Positions 52,806 to 60,813 of a stretch of DNA of 64,000 nt are shown in pieces. How positions within the stretch are numbered: the first letter of the stretch is position 1; every line of letters begins with the position of its first letter. Source of the DNA: Nesterenkonia sp. LB17 (GTDB taxonomy: Bacteria; Actinomycetota; Actinomycetes; Actinomycetales; Micrococcaceae). Made by a program: the position numbers and the translations under genes. The stretch lies in contig NZ_JAJOYX010000001.1 in assembly GCF_022565915.1 (NCBI RefSeq), positions 620,001 to 684,000 on the forward strand, written 5' to 3'. The notes beneath the pieces are model-generated. The model did no database searches. It saw nothing but the letters and a program-made list of their open reading frames with translations, and had not been told where the DNA came from.

Positions 52806-52838
52806 AAAAAAGCCCGAGCAGGCTGAGCCTGCTCGGGC
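52806..52838 (-). terminator. Original host ssrA terminator, displaced by integration
   Basis: On the minus strand a perfect 12-bp stem (gcccgagcaggc with gcctgctcgggc, 3-base loop) is followed by TTTTTTG. It sits just beyond the left att copy, exactly where the ssrA terminator would be if the element were absent. It now lies 7.6 kb away from ssrA. Confidence 0.88.
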
Positions 52839-52841
52839 GAT

Positions 52842-52860
52842 CTGTGGAGACGGCGGGAAT
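52842..52860. repeat. att direct repeat, left end
   Basis: ctgtggagacggcgggaat is identical to 60441-60459. It is the complement of the tmRNA T-arm and acceptor 3' strand. The flanking bases differ on both sides, which sets the repeat at 19 bp. Confidence 0.92.
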
Positions 52861-52920
52861 GTAGCCCGATAGCCGTCTGACCTGTGGTTTTAAGGATTAC
52901 GTGAGTGAGACTCACTCGAC

Positions 52921-52935
52921 GTGCACTCTACGTGC
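52921..52935. promoter_or_regulatory. Candidate integrase arm-type site, left
   Basis: gtgcactctacgtgc lies 61 bases inside the left att repeat and matches 14 of 15 bases at 60289-60303 inside the right end. Paired sites of this kind near both ends are expected for arm-binding by a tyrosine integrase. Confidence 0.5.
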
Positions 52936-52936
52936 G

Positions 52937-53338
52937 TTAATTGATCTCAGATTTCAAAGCGTCCATGTAGGCGTCTATCGCGGGGCCTAGCGCAACTAGA
53001 GGATCCCCTCTGAGCTTGTTCATTGCATCGTCGTAGAGTCTTACTGCACGAACTGCCACGTGGACCGAACTGAGAATCTGTACCTGTGCCAGGGAGCTAG
53101 ACAGCTTCGCCCTTAGCTCGACAAATTCAGGGTCTTGAGATTCACGCGTGACGGACACCCGCATTACGTTCTTCAGCGTCGCGCCGAGTCGCATGGCTTG
53201 ATAGATCTCGCCCAGGAACTTTGCGTGGGCTTCTCTACGTCGGTCCGTCAGGCTGCTCTTGCGGTCCCACTTCGACTTGAATAGTTGTCCAAGGAACGCG
53301 GCACCGGCACCAGCCAGCACGAGTAGTAGTTCGAACAT
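52937..53338 (-). CDS. Hypothetical membrane-anchored helical protein (element cargo)
   Basis: 133 aa. An N-terminal membrane helix (MFELLLVLAGAGAAFLG) is followed by a basic stop-transfer and a wholly alpha-helical cytosolic domain (REAHAKFLGEIYQAMRLGAT ... AKLSSSLAQVQILSSVHVAV). I do not recognise the family. The layout is shared with the divergent gene at 53411, which suggests that the two work together. It ends 76 bases from the att repeat, a typical cargo position in genomic islands. Codon use is less GC-biased than in host genes. Confidence 0.65.
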   Translation of the reverse strand: MFELLLVLAGAGAAFLGQLFKSKWDRKSSLTDRRREAHAKFLGEIYQAMRLGATLKNVMRVSVTRESQDPEFVELRAKLSSSLAQVQILSSVHVAVRAVRLYDDAMNKLRGDPLVALGPAIDAYMDALKSEIN

Positions 53339-53410
53339 GTGCAGACTCCTTTATCTCGGACTCAGCATAGGCGAGTTGAATGGCGCCTAATGCGCTAGGG
53401 TCTTGTCACT

Positions 53411-54079
53411 ATGGAGACAGGAGAGCTGACGAGTGGGGACATCGCGGTCATCGCTGCTGGGTCTGCCTTGCTCACAGCTTTGGTGACTAACCTCGTCACG
53501 CACTTGTCAGCCGCGAGTCGGGAAGCGCGCGCTAGAAACTCTGAGCACCTTGCCAAACTAGTCATTGAGTTTGACCAAGACTTCAAATCATTTCAGAAAG
53601 CATTCTACTCTTGGATACATGCCCAGAATTTCAAAATACGGATCTTGAATGACTCCGATCTAACAGGTGGCCCTAAACCACTTAATGTCGAATCATATAA
53701 AAAGACATCAGACGAAGTAGAATCTAGATTTACGGTTTTGATAAATGAATCCAACAAGCTCGACAAGTATAAGTCTTCACTCGAGATATACGCACCCTCG
53801 GCTGTACGGGATGCCTACATATCGGTGAATGATTCTGTTGATAAAGCTATTAATCTGGCTCACGGCAGCACCTCGGATATTTCTGATGAAATTGAAGCTA
53901 TGGAGGTGAAGCTGGAAGACCAGCGCAGACGCATCGCCGAAGCCACAAGGCGTGAGCTTTACGTTAAGTCCCGCCGTCAACGACTTCGTGACTATCGTCT
54001 GTTCAAGTGGCTTCGTGATCATCGTCCGTTTAATTGGCCGCCCCGAACTAAGCCCTCAGCTCCAACCCCAGGGACTTAA
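53411..54079 (+). CDS. Hypothetical membrane-anchored coiled-coil protein (element cargo)
   Basis: 222 aa. N-terminal helix (DIAVIAAGSALLTALVTNLV) then a long charged, largely helical domain (REARARNSEHLAKLVIEFDQ ... EAMEVKLEDQRRRIAEATRR), ending in a very basic tail with RLRDYRLFKWLRDHRPFNWP. Not recognised. It is the only rightward gene in the element and is divergent from the 133-aa gene, sharing a 72-base promoter region. Its 3' end overlaps the serine recombinase by 32 bases tail-to-tail. The interior (53.6-53.9 kb) is the most AT-rich coding part of the window. Confidence 0.65.
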   Translation: METGELTSGDIAVIAAGSALLTALVTNLVTHLSAASREARARNSEHLAKLVIEFDQDFKSFQKAFYSWIHAQNFKIRILNDSDLTGGPKPLNVESYKKTSDEVESRFTVLINESNKLDKYKSSLEIYAPSAVRDAYISVNDSVDKAINLAHGSTSDISDEIEAMEVKLEDQRRRIAEATRRELYVKSRRQRLRDYRLFKWLRDHRPFNWPPRTKPSAPTPGT

Positions 54080-54632
54080 TGCGCTTGTAGAAGCCCTGCC
54101 GAGACATAGCCAGTCGGTGACACTCATCGGTGACTGACGACGATCCATCTCGCACCCGTGTAGCCGCCTGTGTGATCCTCAGATCAGAGACGACGGGTTT
54201 CCGTCCACCGATCTTCTGTCCGCTCGCCTGAGCCCTGCGTATGCCAGCCTGAGCCCGTTCACGCTTGATGTTGGCTTCCATTACAGCAAGTGCACTGAGG
54301 ATGTGGAACACAGCGCGTCCCATCTCTGTACCTGTGTTCACGTCTCCTGCCGTGGTGCGCATAGTGATGCCCCGTTCGGTCAGCTCTTCCACTAGTTCGA
54401 GCATTCCCTTCATGGTGCGCCCTGCCCGGTCGAGAGCCGTGACAAGTACGGTGTCTCCCGACTCCATGCGACCTAATAGGCGTGTCAGTCCGTCACGCTC
54501 CATAGTGCGCCCGGTGATCCCGTGGTCTTCTTCGATGTGCTCAGGCTCAACGCCGTGCGCTTCAAGCTCTCTGCGCTGCTCCGATGTGTCTTGCCTGGCA
54601 GTCGAGACCCGCACGTATCCCCATTTAGTCAT
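54048..54632 (-). CDS. Serine recombinase, resolvase/invertase family
   Basis: 194-aa small serine recombinase. Catalytic Ser in WGYVRVSTARQDTSEQR; further active-site residues in LVTALDRAGRTMKGMLELVE and GRAVFHILSALAVMEANIKR; C-terminal helix-turn-helix SSVTDECHRLAMSRQGFYKR. Such proteins resolve cointegrates or invert DNA. The element already has a tyrosine integrase, so this one may resolve multimers or flip a segment; no inverted target sites were identified. Confidence 0.9.
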   Translation of the reverse strand: MTKWGYVRVSTARQDTSEQRRELEAHGVEPEHIEEDHGITGRTMERDGLTRLLGRMESGDTVLVTALDRAGRTMKGMLELVEELTERGITMRTTAGDVNTGTEMGRAVFHILSALAVMEANIKRERAQAGIRRAQASGQKIGGRKPVVSDLRITQAATRVRDGSSSVTDECHRLAMSRQGFYKRIKSLGLELRA

Positions 54633-54751
54633 GGCTTCAACCTCACCTAATTAGTTGTCAGATTAGTTTACACACGCTGAGCGGCGCGAGATAGGGAAAC
54701 TGTCAACCTTGTGCATGTCACCTTGGACTATGGTCCAGGGTTACACGTAAA

Positions 54752-54787
54752 GAGACCCCCAGACCTCGGAAGGAGTCTGGGGGTCTC
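54752..54787. terminator. Hairpin terminator ending the small-gene operon
   Basis: A perfect 13-bp stem (gagacccccagac with gtctgggggtctc, 10-base loop), with TTT following on the minus strand. It lies 45 bases past the end of the leftward operon and probably isolates it from the serine recombinase gene. Confidence 0.75.
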
Positions 54788-54831
54788 ATGCCGTGAAGCG
54801 CGGCATCTTCCGCGTGAGCGGGGAGGGAGGT

Positions 54832-55476
54832 TTACTTATCGCCACCGAACATGGAGTCGAAGACCTCAGCGGAGTTCAGTGAATTGCGCGTGACGTTTCC
54901 TTTGGCCACGAGCTGGGCATCATATGACAGGTGGGCCTCTTCAGGATTGACACTGAGCGCACGCAGGGCAAGTGACTCTGTATGGTCCAGCTCGCCGAGA
55001 ACATCGTCCACAGCCGGTGCCATGATCTGAGTGCCAGGGGTCGAGTCGTCCATAAGCTCAGCCTGAATGAGTCGCTGCGCGAGGTAGCTATCTGCATAGG
55101 TCCGCTGAAGCGCCTCGACCTCCGTCGGAGTCGCGCCGAGCTGCTTCATCGTGGCAATCTGCTCACGGACACCACTAGGCATTGGCTTAGCAATTGAGCG
55201 GCGGACCTTCTCACGGGCGGTGTCGTACTGGGCGCGGATCACCTTCTCAGCGGCCTGACGTTCCTTCATCACCTTCAGTTCAGCGTCTGCTTTGGTGGTG
55301 GTGCCATTGAGCCACACACGCTCGCCTGTCTTCACGTCTCGCAGTTCGCGGTCATCCACGCGTGAATATTCGTACTGGGCCTTCTCCATGTACTTAGCGA
55401 CGGCTGCGCCAGGCTCCATGCCCTCATACCAGGGGCCGAGAGGGATGTGCGACGGCGGGAAACTGGTCTTGCTCAT
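54832..55476 (-). CDS. Hypothetical protein (element), highly helical
   Basis: 214 aa, unrecognised. Polar and mostly helical: KADAELKVMKERQAAEKVIR, EKVRRSIAKPMPSG, TPTEVEALQRTYADSYLAQR; no membrane segment or signal. Last gene of the leftward set begun by the 73-aa gene. A helical, acidic, soluble protein after a terminase-small-subunit-like gene might be a scaffold-like or capsid-redirecting factor in a phage satellite, but that is only positional reasoning. The start ATG follows an AAGGAAAA site. Confidence 0.6.
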   Translation of the reverse strand: MSKTSFPPSHIPLGPWYEGMEPGAAVAKYMEKAQYEYSRVDDRELRDVKTGERVWLNGTTTKADAELKVMKERQAAEKVIRAQYDTAREKVRRSIAKPMPSGVREQIATMKQLGATPTEVEALQRTYADSYLAQRLIQAELMDDSTPGTQIMAPAVDDVLGELDHTESLALRALSVNPEEAHLSYDAQLVAKGNVTRNSLNSAEVFDSMFGGDK

Positions 55477-55502
55477 ATGGTTTTCCTTACTTTGTGGTGT
55501 GG

Positions 55503-55736
55503 TTATTCGGGAAGTTCGTCCGCGATGATGACCGTCATGCGACCGTCACCGTCTTGGAACTGGTCTAGGTATTCGTCCAGATCGTGGACGCGCACCTTCA
55601 CGTTTTCTGATCTGCCGGGAATGCCGTCCCACCACATCTCGCTCGCTATGCCGTCTTCAATCAGGATTAGTGAGGGTCGGGGCTGTGGTGCCGATATTCG
55701 CCGTTCGGCTTCATTGAGGAACTGAAGCGTTCTCAC
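55503..55736 (-). CDS. Hypothetical 77-aa protein (element)
   Basis: Small acidic protein (MRTLQFLNEAERRISAPQ ... VRVHDLDEYLDQFQDGDGRM). No recognisable domain. ATG overlaps the stop of the upstream 134-aa gene (ATGA), so it is translated in the same operon, which is the main evidence that it is real. Function unknown. Confidence 0.6.
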   Translation of the reverse strand: MRTLQFLNEAERRISAPQPRPSLILIEDGIASEMWWDGIPGRSENVKVRVHDLDEYLDQFQDGDGRMTVIIADELPE

Positions 55737-56137
55737 GGGATAACCTCGCCGCCACGACGCGTGGACGGTGCCCGTGTGGCCTTGAGAGCGTCTTCCAGGA
55801 CTGTCAGGCGTTCCTGTACCTCGAGCTGTTCTGCCAGGCTCTCAACGCGACTCAGGATGCTATTAGCGGCCTGGACGCGTGCAGTCGAGGGTGCGGCCTG
55901 ATCGTTTTGAATCTCTGCCAGCGTTGCCACGGACTTGAGTACGTGAACCTCGAGAGTGCTGAGCACCTTCGTCAGAAGTCCTCGCCTCGCATCTCTGATG
56001 ATTTCCAGCGTCTCTGGCTCATTGAGTCGGCGGCTTGCTGTTGAGAGTGAGACCCCGGCGATCTGTGCCGCGCGAGTCATACTCCCTTCTGCGATATACG
56101 CCGTGGCAAGGGTCTCGCGGTCAAGTGCGCCGGTCAT
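55733..56137 (-). CDS. HTH protein resembling phage terminase small subunit
   Basis: 134 aa. N-terminal helix-turn-helix: AYIAEGSMTRAAQIAGVSLS, TASRRLNEPETLEIIRDARR. It is followed by long helices with LKSVATLAEIQNDQAAPSTA and RVQAANSILSRVESLAEQLE. This pattern (HTH, then a repeat-like helical segment with 'D..AP...R..AA..IL') is common in phage small proteins annotated as terminase small subunit or phBC6A51-type HTH. It could recognise packaging sites or act as a regulator. 4-base overlaps with both neighbours. Confidence 0.65.
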   Translation of the reverse strand: MTGALDRETLATAYIAEGSMTRAAQIAGVSLSTASRRLNEPETLEIIRDARRGLLTKVLSTLEVHVLKSVATLAEIQNDQAAPSTARVQAANSILSRVESLAEQLEVQERLTVLEDALKATRAPSTRRGGEVIP

Positions 56138-56355
56138 ACGTCGATGCCCCGACTGCGCAGAAGCTCGCGAGACTCTTCATCACGGGCGTGCTCTGCCGCC
56201 GCGAGATCGTCCAAGAACTGGCGATACCAGAATGCTCGAGCGTACTCAGTGGATTTACCGGGATTCCTTTTGACCCATGCACGCTGATAAGCGCGACGCT
56301 TCTCACGCTTTCTTTCAACCACTTCCTCCGGCGTTAAACTATTTGTTGTATCCAT
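56134..56355 (-). CDS. Hypothetical 73-aa basic protein (element)
   Basis: Small basic protein with KREKRRAYQRAWVKRNPGKS and TEYARAFWYRQFLDDLAAAE, resembling the short Arg/Tyr-rich segments that precede HNH or DNA-binding phage proteins. It opens the four-gene leftward operon and overlaps the next gene by 4 bases. Start region has no strong ribosome site (attaaagt...), so initiation could be weak. Confidence 0.55.
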   Translation of the reverse strand: MDTTNSLTPEEVVERKREKRRAYQRAWVKRNPGKSTEYARAFWYRQFLDDLAAAEHARDEESRELLRSRGIDV

Positions 56356-56500
56356 GATTAAAGTATCCCATAAAGGGGTGAACTTATCAAAGAAATTCCG
56401 GATACATTTATCATTCTTTTCGTCACGCCGTTTTAGCTGATTAACCCCAAGTCACCGAGAATCGCCCACGTTGTTAGTTTTGCTCACAACCCCTACTTCT

Positions 56501-56670
56501 GAGCTATCCCCAACCAGTTACTGTCCCTGAAATATCTACCCCCGCTACTTCGTAGCTTGGGGATAGATAGGGATAGTTCGCAAAAACCGCTAAAACCCCA
56601 GGTCAGAGCGATATCAACTATCCCTCTAACTCTCCCTGAGCTATCTCTCGGGGAGAGTTGAAGAGGGGAG
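56501..56670. other. Repeat-rich noncoding region, candidate replication origin
   Basis: Part of a 315-base gap (56356-56670) with no supportable gene. It contains the motif aactatccct (56616-56625) and its inverse agggatagtt (56569-56578), further ctatccc/ggatag copies at 56504-56510 and 56561-56566, gagctatc at 56501 and 56638, an imperfect palindrome around gctac-ttc-gtagc (56534-56567), and inverted ctctaactctcc/ggggagttagag. It directly follows the PrimPol-helicase gene. The adjoining 56356-56500 is AT-rich with nothing clear in it. Origins of known satellites lie 3' of their replication gene; origin function here is inferred. Confidence 0.5.
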
Positions 56671-58554
56671 TTAGAGCGCGTAGAACGTGTGCTTGCGCCC
56701 GTCCCGCCGCATCTCGATCAGGCTCTGACTCAGCAGCGACTCTTTAGCTGTGTGTTTTGCGTCGGTCTGTCCTGGAAGGTTGCCGATCCCGCAGCCGGGG
56801 TGCTTCTTGATGTAGTCGAGTACCTTGCGCTCAAGCTCTACCAGCGCGTCCACCTCATCGGCAAAATGCTCACCGTCCATGCTCGCGGTGAGTAGCTGTG
56901 TCATCGGATCGAACGTGAGCCCGGTGTCAGGGATATCTTCATCGTGTCGGCCCTTGGTCGAGAACTTCCGCTTACCCGCTGACTCTTTGATGTAGAGCAG
57001 GTTGTCAGGGTCATCTTCCTGAACGCTCGAGCCTCGAGGGCTGTGGTCAGCGTGACCCTTCCCGGCGTGCATGACGATGATCTGTTCAGACGCCCCACAC
57101 TCGATACGCAGGTCATTGACCAGGTTGAGAAAGCGCCGCATCTCTCCGGCGTTGTCTTGGCTGTTGAAGGGGAACGCGTTGGAAAGTGGATCGAGGATCA
57201 GAACCTCCACACCGTGAGCCTTGAAGTCCTCAGCGATCACGCGCCACTGCTCCGGGTGCGTGAAGGGGTTGAACCCTTCGCGCCCGTGGAACACTCGCAC
57301 CTTGTTCAGGTCGATACCCATACGGCGCGCGTTCTCCTGAAACTTACGCTTCGGCATCTCGTAGTTGAGATATCCCACCGTGCCTTGCACCGGTACAGTC
57401 TCGAACTCGCCGAGGAACGGCTCACCAGTGGTCAGGGAGCGCACCAGGTTCATAGTGAACGTGGTCTTACCTGCCTTGGCCTTGGCGCTGATGCCGAGCT
57501 TGCCGCCAGTGAACAGGATTCCTTCAATACGCTCCGCTGGACCTTCCTCTACCTCATCGTCCAGTGACACCGGTGCCAGCAGTTTGCCACTTGTCGCAGC
57601 GTCCTCCCGCTCGAGTGCTTCCCGTGCGTCCCTGACGACTCGCTGTCTGAGCTGTTCTGTGTCGAGGTCTCGCTGATACCTCGGACTGTCCTCAGGCTTG
57701 AAACCACCGTTGAGCATCTTGCCCACTGCGCCCATGAGCGCGGTATCCCAGTCGTGAACCCATTTGCCGTCGATAGATTCACCGTCAGCCGGACGGATAT
57801 AGACCTCGCGCAGCGCGTCGAGCAGAAGCATCGTTGCATCACCGGGGACAGACCCGGCGATCATAGCGACCTGAACGCGCAGCATGAAGTCACGGTTCAG
57901 GGTGCCCTGCTCGCGCTCGGCAATGAACCGGTTCAGCAGGTCTGCACGGGTGGCTTCCTGTGCATCGTCATAGCGTCCGACGTGGTCCGCGATGAAGGTA
58001 AGAAACTGTGCACGTGTCGCGGGGTCTCCATAGATGCCCAGACTCTCGAGGAACGTCACCGACTCTGGCAGTGCTGGCAGTGTCTCCGGTGGCGCGTAGG
58101 GAGCGACCACGTAGCCAGCAGAAGAGCGCACGTCCACTAGTGGCACGGGCATACCGTCGAGGTCTGACACCCCCACGTTGCGCACCTCTTCAGTCGCGGC
58201 GTACCAATAGTGCTTGCCCACACGTGAGAGTGAGTGGAACCCGTCAGCCGGGTCCAGGGTGACACCTGCGACGGTCAACCCGTCGTGACCATCGCGACCT
58301 TCCTTATGGTCAACGTCGATCACCACTGCACCGCCTGAGAACGGCACGACTCCGACCAACGCTTCAGGGTGTCGCAGCCACCACCGCTTGATCTGGTCGG
58401 GGCTGTTAGAAGCCACCAGAAACCCTCGCTCACCGTTAAGCGGCTCTTTATCGGAGTTGCACGGCAGGATTGAATAACCTGCATTTACCCATTCGAGGGC
58501 AAGTTCAGCGCCTGTCTTTACGGTGTCAACGATGGTAGAATAGGGGTTAGGCAT
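56671..58554 (-). CDS. Bifunctional primase-polymerase/helicase replication protein (element)
   Basis: 627-aa replication protein. N-terminal archaeo-eukaryotic-type PrimPol domain: ALEWVNAGYSILPCNSDKEP, GAVVIDVDHKEGRDG (DxD metal site) and VGKHYWYA (His). C-terminal RepA/AAA_25 helicase: LGISAKAKAGKTTFTMNLV (Walker A), VEVLILDPLSNAF (Walker B), SEQIIVMHAGKGHADHS. A winged-helix-like end (LDYIKKHPGCGIGNLPGQTD) follows. ATG at 58554 has an AGAAAG site. The frame stays open to 58647 through a hairpin, but that extension is unlike protein. It probably starts replication of the element from the adjacent repeats. Confidence 0.85.
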   Translation of the reverse strand: MPNPYSTIVDTVKTGAELALEWVNAGYSILPCNSDKEPLNGERGFLVASNSPDQIKRWWLRHPEALVGVVPFSGGAVVIDVDHKEGRDGHDGLTVAGVTLDPADGFHSLSRVGKHYWYAATEEVRNVGVSDLDGMPVPLVDVRSSAGYVVAPYAPPETLPALPESVTFLESLGIYGDPATRAQFLTFIADHVGRYDDAQEATRADLLNRFIAEREQGTLNRDFMLRVQVAMIAGSVPGDATMLLLDALREVYIRPADGESIDGKWVHDWDTALMGAVGKMLNGGFKPEDSPRYQRDLDTEQLRQRVVRDAREALEREDAATSGKLLAPVSLDDEVEEGPAERIEGILFTGGKLGISAKAKAGKTTFTMNLVRSLTTGEPFLGEFETVPVQGTVGYLNYEMPKRKFQENARRMGIDLNKVRVFHGREGFNPFTHPEQWRVIAEDFKAHGVEVLILDPLSNAFPFNSQDNAGEMRRFLNLVNDLRIECGASEQIIVMHAGKGHADHSPRGSSVQEDDPDNLLYIKESAGKRKFSTKGRHDEDIPDTGLTFDPMTQLLTASMDGEHFADEVDALVELERKVLDYIKKHPGCGIGNLPGQTDAKHTAKESLLSQSLIEMRRDGRKHTFYAL

Positions 58555-58613
58555 AATAGTCTTTCTGGTCGATTGTTGATTGTGTCGATGGTTCTCCTCT
58601 CCTGTGGTGGTAT

Positions 58614-58643
58614 CTAAGGCCCGGTCTCCCAACCGGGCCTTAG
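58614..58643. promoter_or_regulatory. 12-bp perfect hairpin between excisionase and PrimPol genes
   Basis: ctaaggcccggt pairs with accgggccttag around a 6-base loop. It starts one base beyond the excisionase stop and lies 60 bases before the PrimPol start. There is no T-run on either strand, so it may be an attenuator or a messenger-processing/stability element rather than a terminator. Confidence 0.5.
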
Positions 58644-58817
58644 TCATGAGGTCACCGGCTCGAGTAGAGCCTCAATGTCGGCGACTTTGATTCTGAGTAG
58701 GTGTCCGTGAATACGGAATGCGGGAAGACTCCCGTCGTCAATCCAGCGGCGGACGCTGCGAGTACTTACGCCGAGCATTTCGGCGGTCTGATCGACGGTT
58801 GCGACTGTAAAGGGCAT
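58644..58817 (-). CDS. Excisionase-like HTH protein (MerR-type HTH_17)
   Basis: 57-aa protein: TVDQTAEMLGVSTRSVRRWI, then DDGSLPAFRIHGHLLRI and KVADIEALL. This is the excisionase/AlpA-type winged helix (HTH_17) that binds att DNA and biases the integrase toward excision, or acts as an activator. It is too short for many gene callers. ATG at 58817 preceded on its strand by aggccctgct. It sits between the integrase and the replication gene, as in many islands. Confidence 0.8.
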   Translation of the reverse strand: MPFTVATVDQTAEMLGVSTRSVRRWIDDGSLPAFRIHGHLLRIKVADIEALLEPVTS

Positions 58818-58925
58818 AGCAGGGCCTATCTATTGATACAAAATAGGACGTTACGCTTTTTTACGGTTCAGCTACCCCGATGATCACTTCTCAGAAAGAC
58901 TCCGCGCCCGAGTGACAAGAAAAGC

Positions 58926-58953
58926 TTATCAAGTATTGTCTTAGTCTGTCAAT
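58926..58953 (-). promoter_or_regulatory. Candidate promoter of the excisionase/replication operon
   Basis: On the minus strand a perfect -35 TTGACA (58948-58953) is followed after 16 bases by GATAAG (58926-58931), 4 of 6 matches to TATAAT. It is ~110 bases upstream of the excisionase start in an AT-rich 197-base gap. Reasonable but unproven. Confidence 0.4.
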
Positions 58954-59014
58954 AAATGGCCGTACAGCGAACATGTGTAAATAGATTTATCCATTTCTAC
59001 TCACACTTTAATAG

Positions 59015-60277
59015 CTAAAACTGAGGCATCTCGTTACTCATGAGCTGCACTAGCTTCAACTGTCGATCCTGGGTCGAGTGTTGATAGCGCATCACTACCT
59101 TGTGGTCGGAGTGTCCACCTCGGTACATGAGTTCTTTCAGGGTCGCGCCCTGCTGGGCGTAGAGAGTCAGCCCCGTGTGCCGTAGATCGTGAAAGCGGAA
59201 CCCCTCCATGTTGAGAGAGTCCCTGACCTCTCTCCAAGTACGGTCAAACACTGACGATGAAGCTATCTCACCCTTGGAGCGCTTCGAGGGGGTCAGGGAT
59301 CGCAGGATAAGCGCGTTTGGGTGTTCCTCTACGTGGGAGTCCATGTGGTCCCGAAGAGTTGGCAGTATGCCGCTAGGGATGAACAGGTTTCGCTCACCGC
59401 TGGTGCTCTTCACGTCTCCATCGTCGGTGAGTTTGCCAGTCTTGGTGTTGAGCTGTCGCCTGACCTTCACCAGTGCACGGGTGCTGTCGTCTAGGTGTTC
59501 AAAGTCCCGGCGCTGAAGTCCTAGGGTTTCGCCTAGGCGCGTCTGGCAGTACGCGGCTAACAGGACGGCTATCCGCCACTGTTCTGGCATGGCTTCATGG
59601 AGCGCTTTGACCTGCTCCTGCGTCGCTACGTCTGAGTCCTCGCGTCGAGCCCGTACCGGCTTGTTTGCGGGTAGGTACATGTGGGGGAGTGAAGCTATAT
59701 ACCCTTCCCGCTCGGCGTCGCTTAGAAGGGCTTTCAGTGTTCTACCGACTGGCAGGGCTACGCCGTTGCCCCGGCCTTGAGGGTTCACCTTCGACGGTTG
59801 TAGGGCAAGATCATCGAGCAGCTTGCCTACGTTCTTGTCGTTGAGTTCGCTCATGCGTAGATCCCCTAGCACCGGCAACACGTCGTGCTCGAGTCTGCTC
59901 CGGTAGGTGCTGATCGTAGAAGTTTTGACCTCGCGTGCGCCTCGGCCTGAAACAGTCTTGCCACTGGCTTTCGCTGTGAGCCATAGCTGAGTGAACGCGG
60001 TCAGCGTCATATCCCGCTCCAAGGCTTCTGCCTCGAGCTGTGCCTTTTCGTCCGCAAGCCTCTGAGTCTCAGCTTCACGCTGAGCTTTTTCTTCTGGACT
60101 GACCCACGCCTCACGGTCAATGTCTGCTTTGACTCGACCTAGATAGCTGGTCGCGGCACCCTTGGTGTCGAACGTGGTGTGTGCTTTATGGCGCTGATGG
60201 TCGGGACCGATGTACGTGGCCTGAAACTTACCGCTGGGCAGTTTGCGGACAGTTCCGAAGTCTCGACGCTTCGCCAT
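59015..60277 (-). CDS. int: Tyrosine-recombinase integrase
   Basis: 420-aa phage-type integrase. N-terminal arm-binding domain (GTVRKLPSGKFQATYIGPDH), core-binding domain (LTAFTQLWLTAKASGKTVSG, VKTSTISTYRSRLEHDVLPV), and catalytic domain with Arg in CQTRLGETLGLQ, HxxR in FRFHDLRHTGLTLYAQQG, the His of RGGHSDHKVVMRY, and the nucleophile Tyr in MRYQHSTQDRQ. ATG at 60277 is 164 bases from the right att repeat and transcribed away from ssrA, the usual order at att sites. It carries out site-specific integration into ssrA. Confidence 0.94.
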   Translation of the reverse strand: MAKRRDFGTVRKLPSGKFQATYIGPDHQRHKAHTTFDTKGAATSYLGRVKADIDREAWVSPEEKAQREAETQRLADEKAQLEAEALERDMTLTAFTQLWLTAKASGKTVSGRGAREVKTSTISTYRSRLEHDVLPVLGDLRMSELNDKNVGKLLDDLALQPSKVNPQGRGNGVALPVGRTLKALLSDAEREGYIASLPHMYLPANKPVRARREDSDVATQEQVKALHEAMPEQWRIAVLLAAYCQTRLGETLGLQRRDFEHLDDSTRALVKVRRQLNTKTGKLTDDGDVKSTSGERNLFIPSGILPTLRDHMDSHVEEHPNALILRSLTPSKRSKGEIASSSVFDRTWREVRDSLNMEGFRFHDLRHTGLTLYAQQGATLKELMYRGGHSDHKVVMRYQHSTQDRQLKLVQLMSNEMPQF

Positions 60278-60288
60278 GTGTGCCTTTC

Positions 60289-60303
60289 GTGCGCTCTACG
60301 TGC
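60289..60303. promoter_or_regulatory. Candidate integrase arm-type site, right
   Basis: gtgcgctctacgtgc, 14 of 15 identical to the left copy. The adjacent gtgcac at 60314-60319 is a further partial copy in inverted sense. It lies between the integrase start and the right att repeat. Confidence 0.5.
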
Positions 60304-60405
60304 ACTAAGGAGAGTGCACGCGGGTCCAATGGTGTCTACTTCTGTGTACAGCGTAATTCTGTAGCTAGTAGACCACATCCCAGTGATGGCGCGGAAAAAG
60401 GGCAC

Positions 60406-60438
60406 AAAAAAGGGCCAGACACGATGTGTCTGGCCCTT
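60406..60438 (-). terminator. Element-supplied ssrA terminator
   Basis: On the minus strand agggccagacac pairs with gtgtctggccct (3-base loop), followed by TTTTTTG. It lies just inside the right att repeat, so it came with the element and now ends ssrA. The tail CTTTTTTGTGCCC is identical, at nearly the same distance, to the tail after the displaced host terminator. Confidence 0.88.
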
Positions 60439-60440
60439 CA

Positions 60441-60459
60441 CTGTGGAGACGGCGGGAAT
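60441..60459. repeat. att direct repeat, right end (ssrA 3' end)
   Basis: ctgtggagacggcgggaat, identical to 52842-52860. It encodes the end of the tmRNA T-arm and acceptor stem, so recombination here leaves tmRNA intact. Confidence 0.92.
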
Positions 60460-60813
60460 CGAACCCGCGTCCGATCTGGATTCACATGGGCTTCTCCGGG
60501 TGCAGTCTGCTGATAGATTTTCTCGGCCCCAGCCGTCACGCAGACAGGCGGCTGACGGGCCCAGTCGTGTGAATTGTCGACCCAACTCCCCACGACGAGG
60601 AGTTGGAACCAGTGGCTATCTAGCTGATGCCAGGAGCTGGGTCGATAGCAGACCCAGGCTGACAGACTCGCGTCGCTGCTTAGGCAGCGAGGGCGAAGTC
60701 AGTGCGCTTAGTTTCGGCACTTATTGTTTTGCAGAGAGGTATTTACGAGGTCACTCTGCATCCTCGACCCGCTTCACCATGATCAACTCAGATCGTCGAA
60801 ACCGATCGTCCCC
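60444..60813 (-). ncRNA. ssrA: Transfer-messenger RNA (tmRNA)
   Basis: About 370 nt. The 5' end GGGGACG pairs with the 3' CGUCUCC to make the acceptor stem. A T-arm (GGGTTCGATTCCC) precedes the 3' end, and 5' GGTTTCGACGATC is the usual tmRNA start. The resume region encodes AETKRTDFALAA followed by UAA (60680-60718), a typical actinobacterial degradation tag. The CCA is not fully encoded (ACAG follows the acceptor), so it must be added. It acts with SmpB to rescue stalled ribosomes. The last ~16 nt of its 3' end are supplied by the integrated element. Confidence 0.95.

Follow-up and report, generated by a model that had tools for sequence, protein, structure and literature searches.

A compact island at the ssrA gene of Nesterenkonia sp. 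LB17 with the probable character of a helper-dependent phage satellite

In a stretch of 64,000 nucleotides from Nesterenkonia sp. LB17 (contig NZ_JAJOYX010000001.1, positions 620,001 to 684,000; hereafter the window, in which all positions are counted), we found that a 7.6-kb island between att cores at the ssrA (tmRNA) gene is probably an integrated phage satellite, which, judging from its genes, would depend on a helper phage and work like a phage-inducible chromosomal island (PICI). We class it as PICI-like, its membership of the PICIs not being established. From ssrA inward, the gene order is integrase, excisionase, a fusion of PrimPol (primase-polymerase) and AAA_25 domains, p73, p134, p77, p214, serine recombinase, p222, and p133. 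All ten reading frames are open, and all genes except p222 (plus) lie on the minus strand. The main features are the following.

52842..52860, plus strand: attL core, a 19-bp direct repeat at the start of the span 52842..60459, exact duplicate of 60441-60459
55733..56137, minus strand: p134, a terminase-small-subunit-like helix-turn-helix (HTH) protein of 134 aa, so named from satellite-phage relatives, small-terminase profiles of the relatives, and an AlphaFold2 (AF2) model
56671..58647, minus strand: Prim-Pol and AAA_25 helicase fusion, 658 aa (PF09250 2.2e-16; AAA_25 PF13481 6.9e-24)
58644..58817, minus strand: AlpA/excisionase-type HTH_17 protein, 57 aa (PF12728 2.7e-14; TIGR01764 excise 8.2e-12, over the cut-off)
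59015..60277, minus strand: tyrosine integrase, 420 aa (Phage_integrase PF00589 1.8e-14)
60403..60445, minus strand: hairpin (inverted repeat) adjoining the ssrA 3' end, carried by the island
60441..60459, plus strand: attR core, within the ssrA 3' end
60443..60813, minus strand: ssrA (tmRNA), the target gene (ARAGORN; Rfam RF00023, 172.6 bits)

The window contains the 19-bp repeat at just two places, starting at 52842 and 60441; the one on the right forms the 3' end of ssrA, which stays complete thanks to the att core. The GC content of the island is 0.560, as compared to 0.681 for the rest of the window and a range of 0.665-0.704 in 98 equal-size windows elsewhere. We compared the joined flanks (the left flank through the core, then ssrA) with 12 congener loci that have no second core copy. 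In seven of them (L021, L023, L024, L026, L027, L032, and L033), the match is unbroken to 41-43 bp left of the core (80.1-96.8% over 431-474 bp) and spans a hairpin that is now outside attL. This native hairpin (52812-52838, with a terminator-like site at 52838-52812) directly adjoins ssrA in L032 and L033, and the 42 bp left of the core are identical to the window's in L033. The flank match extends 10 bp left of the core in L031 and starts inside the core in the other four loci (L019, L020, L025, L028), and the farther-left intergenic flanks diverge in L030-L033. For L019, L020, and others, the comparison covered at most the ssrA junction. The hairpin carried by the island at the ssrA 3' end possibly replaces the terminator of the gene. 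L033:2200-5000 (G042) has extra DNA of about 2.7 kb, typical in GC, between ssrA and an aldo/keto-reductase-like gene, and no second exact copy of the att core is present there.

A 17-base core is found in 25 of 30 genus genomes, with two copies in LB17 and G178, one copy in 23, and none in the remaining five. The sister species G178 carries a 2.26-kb remnant at ssrA (L030:4744-7020) with a truncated integrase, of which a 230-aa fragment is 86% identical to the window's. Both ends of the island are kept in the remnant, 103 bp on the left at 75% and 887 bp on the right at 81%, while the remnant's interior holds two low-GC genes, one encoding a 212-aa protein that looks lipoprotein-like by eye and the other a 138-aa protein, with nothing alike in the island. 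Presence and absence at ssrA, which an earlier note made from the letters of this DNA had named as a comparison to make, is seen across the genus, with unoccupied sites in congeners, the island in its own genome, and a remnant in G178.

The integrase adjoins ssrA and contains the strings TRLGE, HDLRH, and MRYQH, which we take to be catalytic. The 658-aa fusion, a presumed replication protein, contains the strings VIDVDH, GKHYWY, KAGKT, and LILDP, presumably the functional motifs of its two domains. In single-protein searches, the integrase had no match in viral contigs; the fusion matched one 4.4-kb viral contig and no genome contig, and it had no usable match among PDB sequences. Integrases 41-42% identical to the window's occur in L049 and L050 (G199, G208), and L050 also encodes a type IV secretion system (T4SS) coupling protein; the genes preceding both integrases look like class Ib ribonucleotide reductase genes. 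Among the ten island proteins, Pfam, PHROGs, and NCBIfam gave no capsid, portal, large terminase, tail, lysis, relaxase, or FtsK/TraSA family. These results bear out most of what the earlier note had read from the letters, namely the exact att pair at the tmRNA 3' end, the tyrosine integrase, the 57-aa excisionase, the PrimPol-helicase, a serine recombinase (PF00239 6.6e-34), and the absence of capsid, portal, large terminase, lysis, relaxase, and TraSA genes.

Protein p134 is probably, but not certainly, a small terminase (TerS), judging from its relatives. Against 50,697 phage records, it gave seven matches at E <= 0.1, four of which are Streptococcus satellite phages (Javan328, 147, 152, and 176; best E 1e-3). 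Relatives from six of the seven records (Javan152 left out) were aligned and scanned, and all six match the TerS profile phrog_2538 over most of their length (1.1e-7 to 1.1e-3), which p134 itself does not. Two relatives lie at large terminase (TerL) genes: in MT836267, the gene overlaps the large terminase gene (1.3e-48) by 4 bp, and in bajarodcaudo virus 2, a single small gene comes after it and next, past the start of the circular record, a gene annotated as "large terminase". The AF2 model of p134 (six sequences; pLDDT 79, pTM 0.52) consists of an HTH and two long helices. Among its matches in BFVD, the highest-ranking one that bears a name is a terminase small subunit (E 4e-3), as are, by name, 11 of the 50 matches listed. 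The kinship of p134 with TerS is therefore supported via intermediate relatives and gene neighbourhood, and the terminase-small-subunit-like HTH protein of the earlier note stands by way of relatives that match TerS PHROGs, two of them at TerL genes, but not by any direct terminase match. Searches of PDB with p134, by sequence and by fold, gave no usable match, and a single-protein search of viral contigs gave none. One relative, in the 7-kb gut scaffold L064 (MT837364), lies near a DnaB-like helicase gene, and no large terminase was recognised in the scaffold's list of open reading frames (ORFs).

Relatives of the island were located by helicase search and by a TerS profile built from p134 and its kin, with gene calls from our own ORF picker. 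As the loci were selected by helicase or TerS, the presence of one such gene is partly a result of the selection; that it occurs together with an integrase at att repeats, and that TerL, portal, and capsid are missing, does not result from it. Of 245 family genomes, the profile matched three, namely LB17 itself, G035 (8.6e-13), and G073 (1.8e-4). In other genera of the family, we found four islands of 5.7-9.7 kb, each between att repeats and each with an integrase and a TerS-like gene.

L035 (G003): at ssrA, with the shared 18-bp core, 9.36 kb; integrase, excisionase, AAA_25 ATPase without Prim-Pol, two TerS genes
L039: at tRNA-Ser, 9.44 kb; integrase, excisionase, AAA_25 ATPase, HNH, TerS (phrog_1496 4.7e-16)
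L071 (G035): at the 3' end of a glutamine synthetase gene, 5.66 kb, 28-bp repeats; integrase, XRE-type repressor, TerS-like gene
L072:41-9783 (G073): at ssrA, core copies at 41 and 9769, 9.73 kb; complete island

The two TerS genes of L035 match phrog_1496 at 1.2e-21 and 1e-16. The TerS-like protein of L071 matches the p134 profile over its full length (8.6e-13) and phrog_4044 at 1.9e-5, and that of L072 matches the TerS profile phrog_10899 at 8e-7, with phrog_3678 (unknown) as its best match (1.6e-8). L072 runs from integrase through excisionase, a DUF3631 protein, an 80-aa protein, the TerS-like protein, and an MmeI-type restriction-modification protein to a serine recombinase; over 50 aa, its excisionase and the window's share 42% identity. 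Between L035 and L039, identity is 62% for the integrase, 48% for the excisionase, 37% for the helicase, and 40% for one TerS pair. Profiles were run on 41 of the 57 ORFs of the four islands (15/19 in L035, 12/17 in L039, 9/9 in L071, 5/12 in L072), and each of the 11 ORFs of at least 250 aa was scanned or has integrase kinship. None of these 11 is a recognised TerL, portal, or capsid; they are integrases, ATPases, the MmeI-type protein, or, in three cases, matchless.

L035 and L072 share with the window's island the ssrA target and the succession of integrase, excisionase, presumed replication ATPase, and TerS-like gene; a small serine recombinase toward the far end is a further shared feature of L072. 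They differ in the ATPase (DUF3631 in L072, AAA_25 without Prim-Pol in L035) and in cargo (the MmeI-type enzyme in L072), and the compared proteins are 27-42% identical. The recurrence at ssrA with different cargo that the earlier note envisaged is therefore found for the integrase, excisionase, replication ATPase, and terS-like layout in two other genera, in addition to the remnant L030, but the exact block of p134 and p214 is not repeated.

A PrimPol search of 197 family genomes gave 16 loci besides the window's own. We mapped 15 of these (L053 was left out), and their types were read from ORF lists, some backed by profile. They comprise the TerS-bearing L035 and L039, the capsid-bearing L029, L036, and L037, the prophage-like L038 and L040, and eight loci that are serine-integrase, conjugative, or plasmid-like. 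L037:1470-12580 (G035) is an 11.1-kb island at tRNA-Val with integrase, excisionase, helicase, HNH, TerL, portal, capsid, and head closure, but no recognised tail gene; it looks like a capsid-forming PICI (cf-PICI). The G035 genome holds both L037 and the TerS island L071. Longer prophages with structural genes between the same genes, which the earlier note had set against its own reading, were not seen, although L037, a related integrase-excisionase-helicase island, has TerL, portal, and capsid. Two loci of the window's genus, L029:2215-8911 (G138) and L036:3678-10211 (G165), combine a serine recombinase/integrase and a relative of the AAA_25-type helicase with a lone HK97-type major capsid gene (PHROG matches 7e-30 and 1.6e-16, respectively, with few neighbouring ORFs scanned). 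Of nine additional loci, L091, L092, and L093 were mapped but did not enter the comparison.

According to the available text of PMC6092414, PICIs are recognised by an integrase, a replication module, a master transcriptional regulator, PICI-specific orthologues, and an att site never occupied by prophages, and are typically 12-15 kb long; a mean size of 9.5 kb is given in the available text of PMC10803314. Also among the PICI criteria are a small terminase or another redirector of packaging, and induction, interference, and packaging into particles that depend on a phage. At 7.6 kb, the island is below that range of length and near that mean. Like PICIs and Staphylococcus aureus pathogenicity islands (SaPIs), it has a terminal integrase, an HTH regulator/excisionase, a replication protein, a TerS-like gene in a late block, and accessory genes after it, and no structural or lysis genes are recognised in it. 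It differs from them in lacking a recognised Stl-type repressor and in having a PrimPol-AAA_25 fusion as replication protein. As for PICI-specific orthologues, p134 alone is a candidate, by distant similarity to proteins of four Streptococcus satellites (best E 1e-3), and p73, p214, and p222 have no match in phage records.

In Streptomyces, particles of the satellites MulchRoom and MiniFlayer were observed, and predicted Actinomycetota PICIs are mentioned (available text of PMC10690885). MulchRoom, like the island, has a tyrosine integrase. According to the same text, these satellites carry genes for capsid, portal, and the two subunits of terminase but have no recognised primase; the island is the reverse. 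Candidate Mycobacterium PICIs and phiRv-like elements are integrated and proposed to be phage-dependent, and the candidates are defined by an integrase and a major capsid gene in the text available of PMC10654092; since the island has no recognised capsid gene, that definition would miss it. The minimal set of PICMI (phage-inducible chromosomal minimalist islands) is an integrase, AlpA (with PF12728 among the AlpA models), and a primase, with a fis site and a DUF3987/DUF5906 primase required (PMC10803314). The island has the integrase, an AlpA-type protein (PF12728), and a primase, but it lies at ssrA and its primase is Prim-Pol/AAA_25. The capsid, portal, and large terminase that define cf-PICIs are found in L037 and not in the island. 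Actinomycete integrative and conjugative elements (AICEs) carry an integrase, an excisionase, a Prim-Pol replication module, and an FtsK-type TraSA translocase; the island resembles them in the first three, and no TraSA/FtsK translocase family was found in it.

We met no satellite of this kind in the literature searched, which is no proof of absence, and the comparison excludes the PICI list of the SatelliteFinder survey. The satellite or helper-dependent island put forward by the earlier note is the best-supported reading. Its further suggestion of an undescribed family is countered by published candidate PICIs of actinobacteria (available texts of PMC10654092 and PMC10690885) and by relatives of the integrase, the helicase, and Prim-Pol, each of which are found in prophage-, conjugative-, or plasmid-like loci.

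If the island is such a satellite, the tyrosine integrase would insert its circle at the ssrA 3' end and rebuild the gene end with a new hairpin. On infection by a helper, the AlpA-type protein would, as in its family, make the integrase excise the circle, and the PrimPol-helicase would replicate the island from an origin perhaps located 3' of its own gene. Protein p134 would then direct the large terminase of the helper to the island, at a packaging site there. The other proteins of the block (p73, p77, and p214) may tune packaging or head assembly, and the genes at the far end could be cargo, perhaps for interference with phages.

Several observations weigh against this satellite reading. 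For p134, no terminase family is matched directly: the best PHROG (0.014) is a "DNA binding protein", a Pfam match (LacI HTH, 3.9e-4) is below the cut-off, and Foldseek gave nothing at E < 0.001 in PDB (generic HTH regulators) or BFVD. The 57-aa excisionase cross-matches small-terminase PHROGs (0.0014, 0.0028), more weakly than it matches excisionases, and the serine recombinase of L072 cross-matches a TerS profile at 5.5e-5 via its HTH. Non-terminase HTH proteins can therefore match TerS profiles, and short HTH-only matches prove little. Just two of the 15 mapped PrimPol/helicase loci gave TerS-bearing islands, so that the helicase is no satellite marker. No Stl-like repressor was recognised among the island proteins, and the LB17 genome has no match to TerL_ATPase (PF03354) or Phage_capsid (PF05065), hence no resident helper by these two models; in 14 control genomes, PF03354 matched in three and PF05065 in four. 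Also against it are the frequency of integrase relatives in phages, the island with a T4SS coupling protein (L050) among the closest integrase loci in the genus outside the sister species (41-42% identical), and the lack of p77, p214, p222, and p133 in any other genome searched.

Three other explanations were considered. The island could be what decay has left of a prophage, its structural, lysis, and large-terminase genes having been lost and integrase, excisionase, primase, and small terminase kept by chance. Relatives of its integrase and helicase are indeed found in phages and prophage-looking loci (those of the integrase are common, in 255 phage records), an integrase-excisionase-helicase island with TerL, portal, and capsid (L037) exists in the family, and the sister island in G178 has decayed. 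We nevertheless consider this improbable, because the integrase has 37% identity to its best match among phage records, the ten frames are open with key motif strings present, and the four other islands, at three types of site, have integrase and TerS-like genes and no recognised TerL, portal, or capsid, which one would not expect from repeated chance decay. An integrative mobilisable or AICE-like island, which would be transferred by conjugation with the help of an integrative and conjugative element and in which p134 would be a DNA-binding regulator, is about as doubtful. Modules of integrase, excisionase, and PrimPol occur in actinomycete conjugative elements too, L050, with one of the closest integrases in the genus outside the sister species (42% identical), has the T4SS coupling protein, and the direct family matches of p134 are HTH/DNA-binding ones; yet no relaxase or FtsK/TraSA family was found in the ten proteins, and p134 has relatives that are located in satellite phages and at TerL genes and that, over most of their length, fit a TerS profile. 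The least probable explanation, to which we give very little credence, is an integrated replicon or defence island that is static and at present has no route of transfer. No close copy of the island was found, and p214, p222, p77, and p133 are confined to their own genome (one of 396 order genomes for p214, and one of 245, 197, and 197 family genomes for the others), but the integrase and excisionase frames are open and the two att cores are there, which, like the presence and absence across the genus, points away from it.

The remaining features of the island lie in the four-gene block, at the far end, and in noncoding DNA.

52937..53338, minus strand: p133, accessory protein with an N-terminal hydrophobic segment, 133 aa
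53411..54079, plus strand: p222, accessory protein with an N-terminal hydrophobic segment, 222 aa, no phage match
54048..54632, minus strand: small serine recombinase (resolvase/invertase type), 194 aa, Resolvase PF00239
54744..54795, minus strand: hairpin after the four-gene block, a probable terminator; inverted repeat, with a terminator-like site at 54772-54756
54832..55476, minus strand: p214, 214 aa; AF2 pLDDT 61
55503..55736, minus strand: p77, 77 aa, no family at E < 0.01
56134..56355, minus strand: p73, first in the four-gene block, 73 aa, no family at E < 0.01
56356..56671, no strand assigned: noncoding stretch of 316 bp, 46% GC, candidate origin with GGGATA/TATCCC words

The genes p73 and p134, as well as p134 and p77, overlap by 4 bp. 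By its position, p214 is a candidate modifier of capsid or packaging; it has no match in viral contigs. A 41-aa match to p214 in L060 was rejected as chance, since it lies on the opposite strand of a long frame that looks like ParB by eye, and the AF2 model of p214 was too poor to serve as a query for fold search. The serine recombinase is 32% identical to the one that L072 carries toward its far end. Of the membrane-protein pair described by the earlier note, the hydrophobic stretch in both far-end proteins is confirmed, but it amounts to one N-terminal segment each. The PADLOC matches of p222, which are weak (JetA 0.005, LeoB 0.012), were dropped, and so were its Pfam matches CAMSAP and Mer2, which are below the cut-off.

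The noncoding stretch 3' of PrimPol holds five copies of GGGATA/TATCCC, as compared to a shuffle mean of 2.9, and 12 of 1000 shuffles reach five; other stretches of the island likewise attain five copies of another word. The repeats noted earlier for this DNA hence do not stand out within the island, and the evidence for an origin at 56356..56671 is weak, a further point against the cycle outlined above. A promoter-like site at 56390-56362, before the 73-aa gene, is flanked by a 15-bp inverted repeat (56354-56368/56400-56414), but promoter-like counts are not above those in shuffles. Terminator-like sites number nine, against 6.0 in shuffles.

We tentatively suggest that capsid-less, TerS-bearing satellites may form an unrecognised and widespread group in Micrococcaceae, with a layout of integrase, excisionase, replication ATPase, terS, and cargo, swappable replication and TerS modules, one TerS lineage shared with Streptococcus satellites, ssrA as a recurrent home, and phage-defence genes as cargo. 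Small actinobacterial elements may be satellites, and experimental validation lags behind (available text of PMC10023795); for the Mycobacterium candidates, induction and transduction remain to be determined, according to the available text of PMC10654092. The five compact islands (the window's, L035, L039, L071, and L072) are testable candidates for satellites that have a small-terminase-like gene and no recognised capsid gene, a kind that would be overlooked in searches based on capsids. If packaging proves true, such islands would provide a route by which defence and other cargo genes may spread across a phylum in which such satellites have been little studied.

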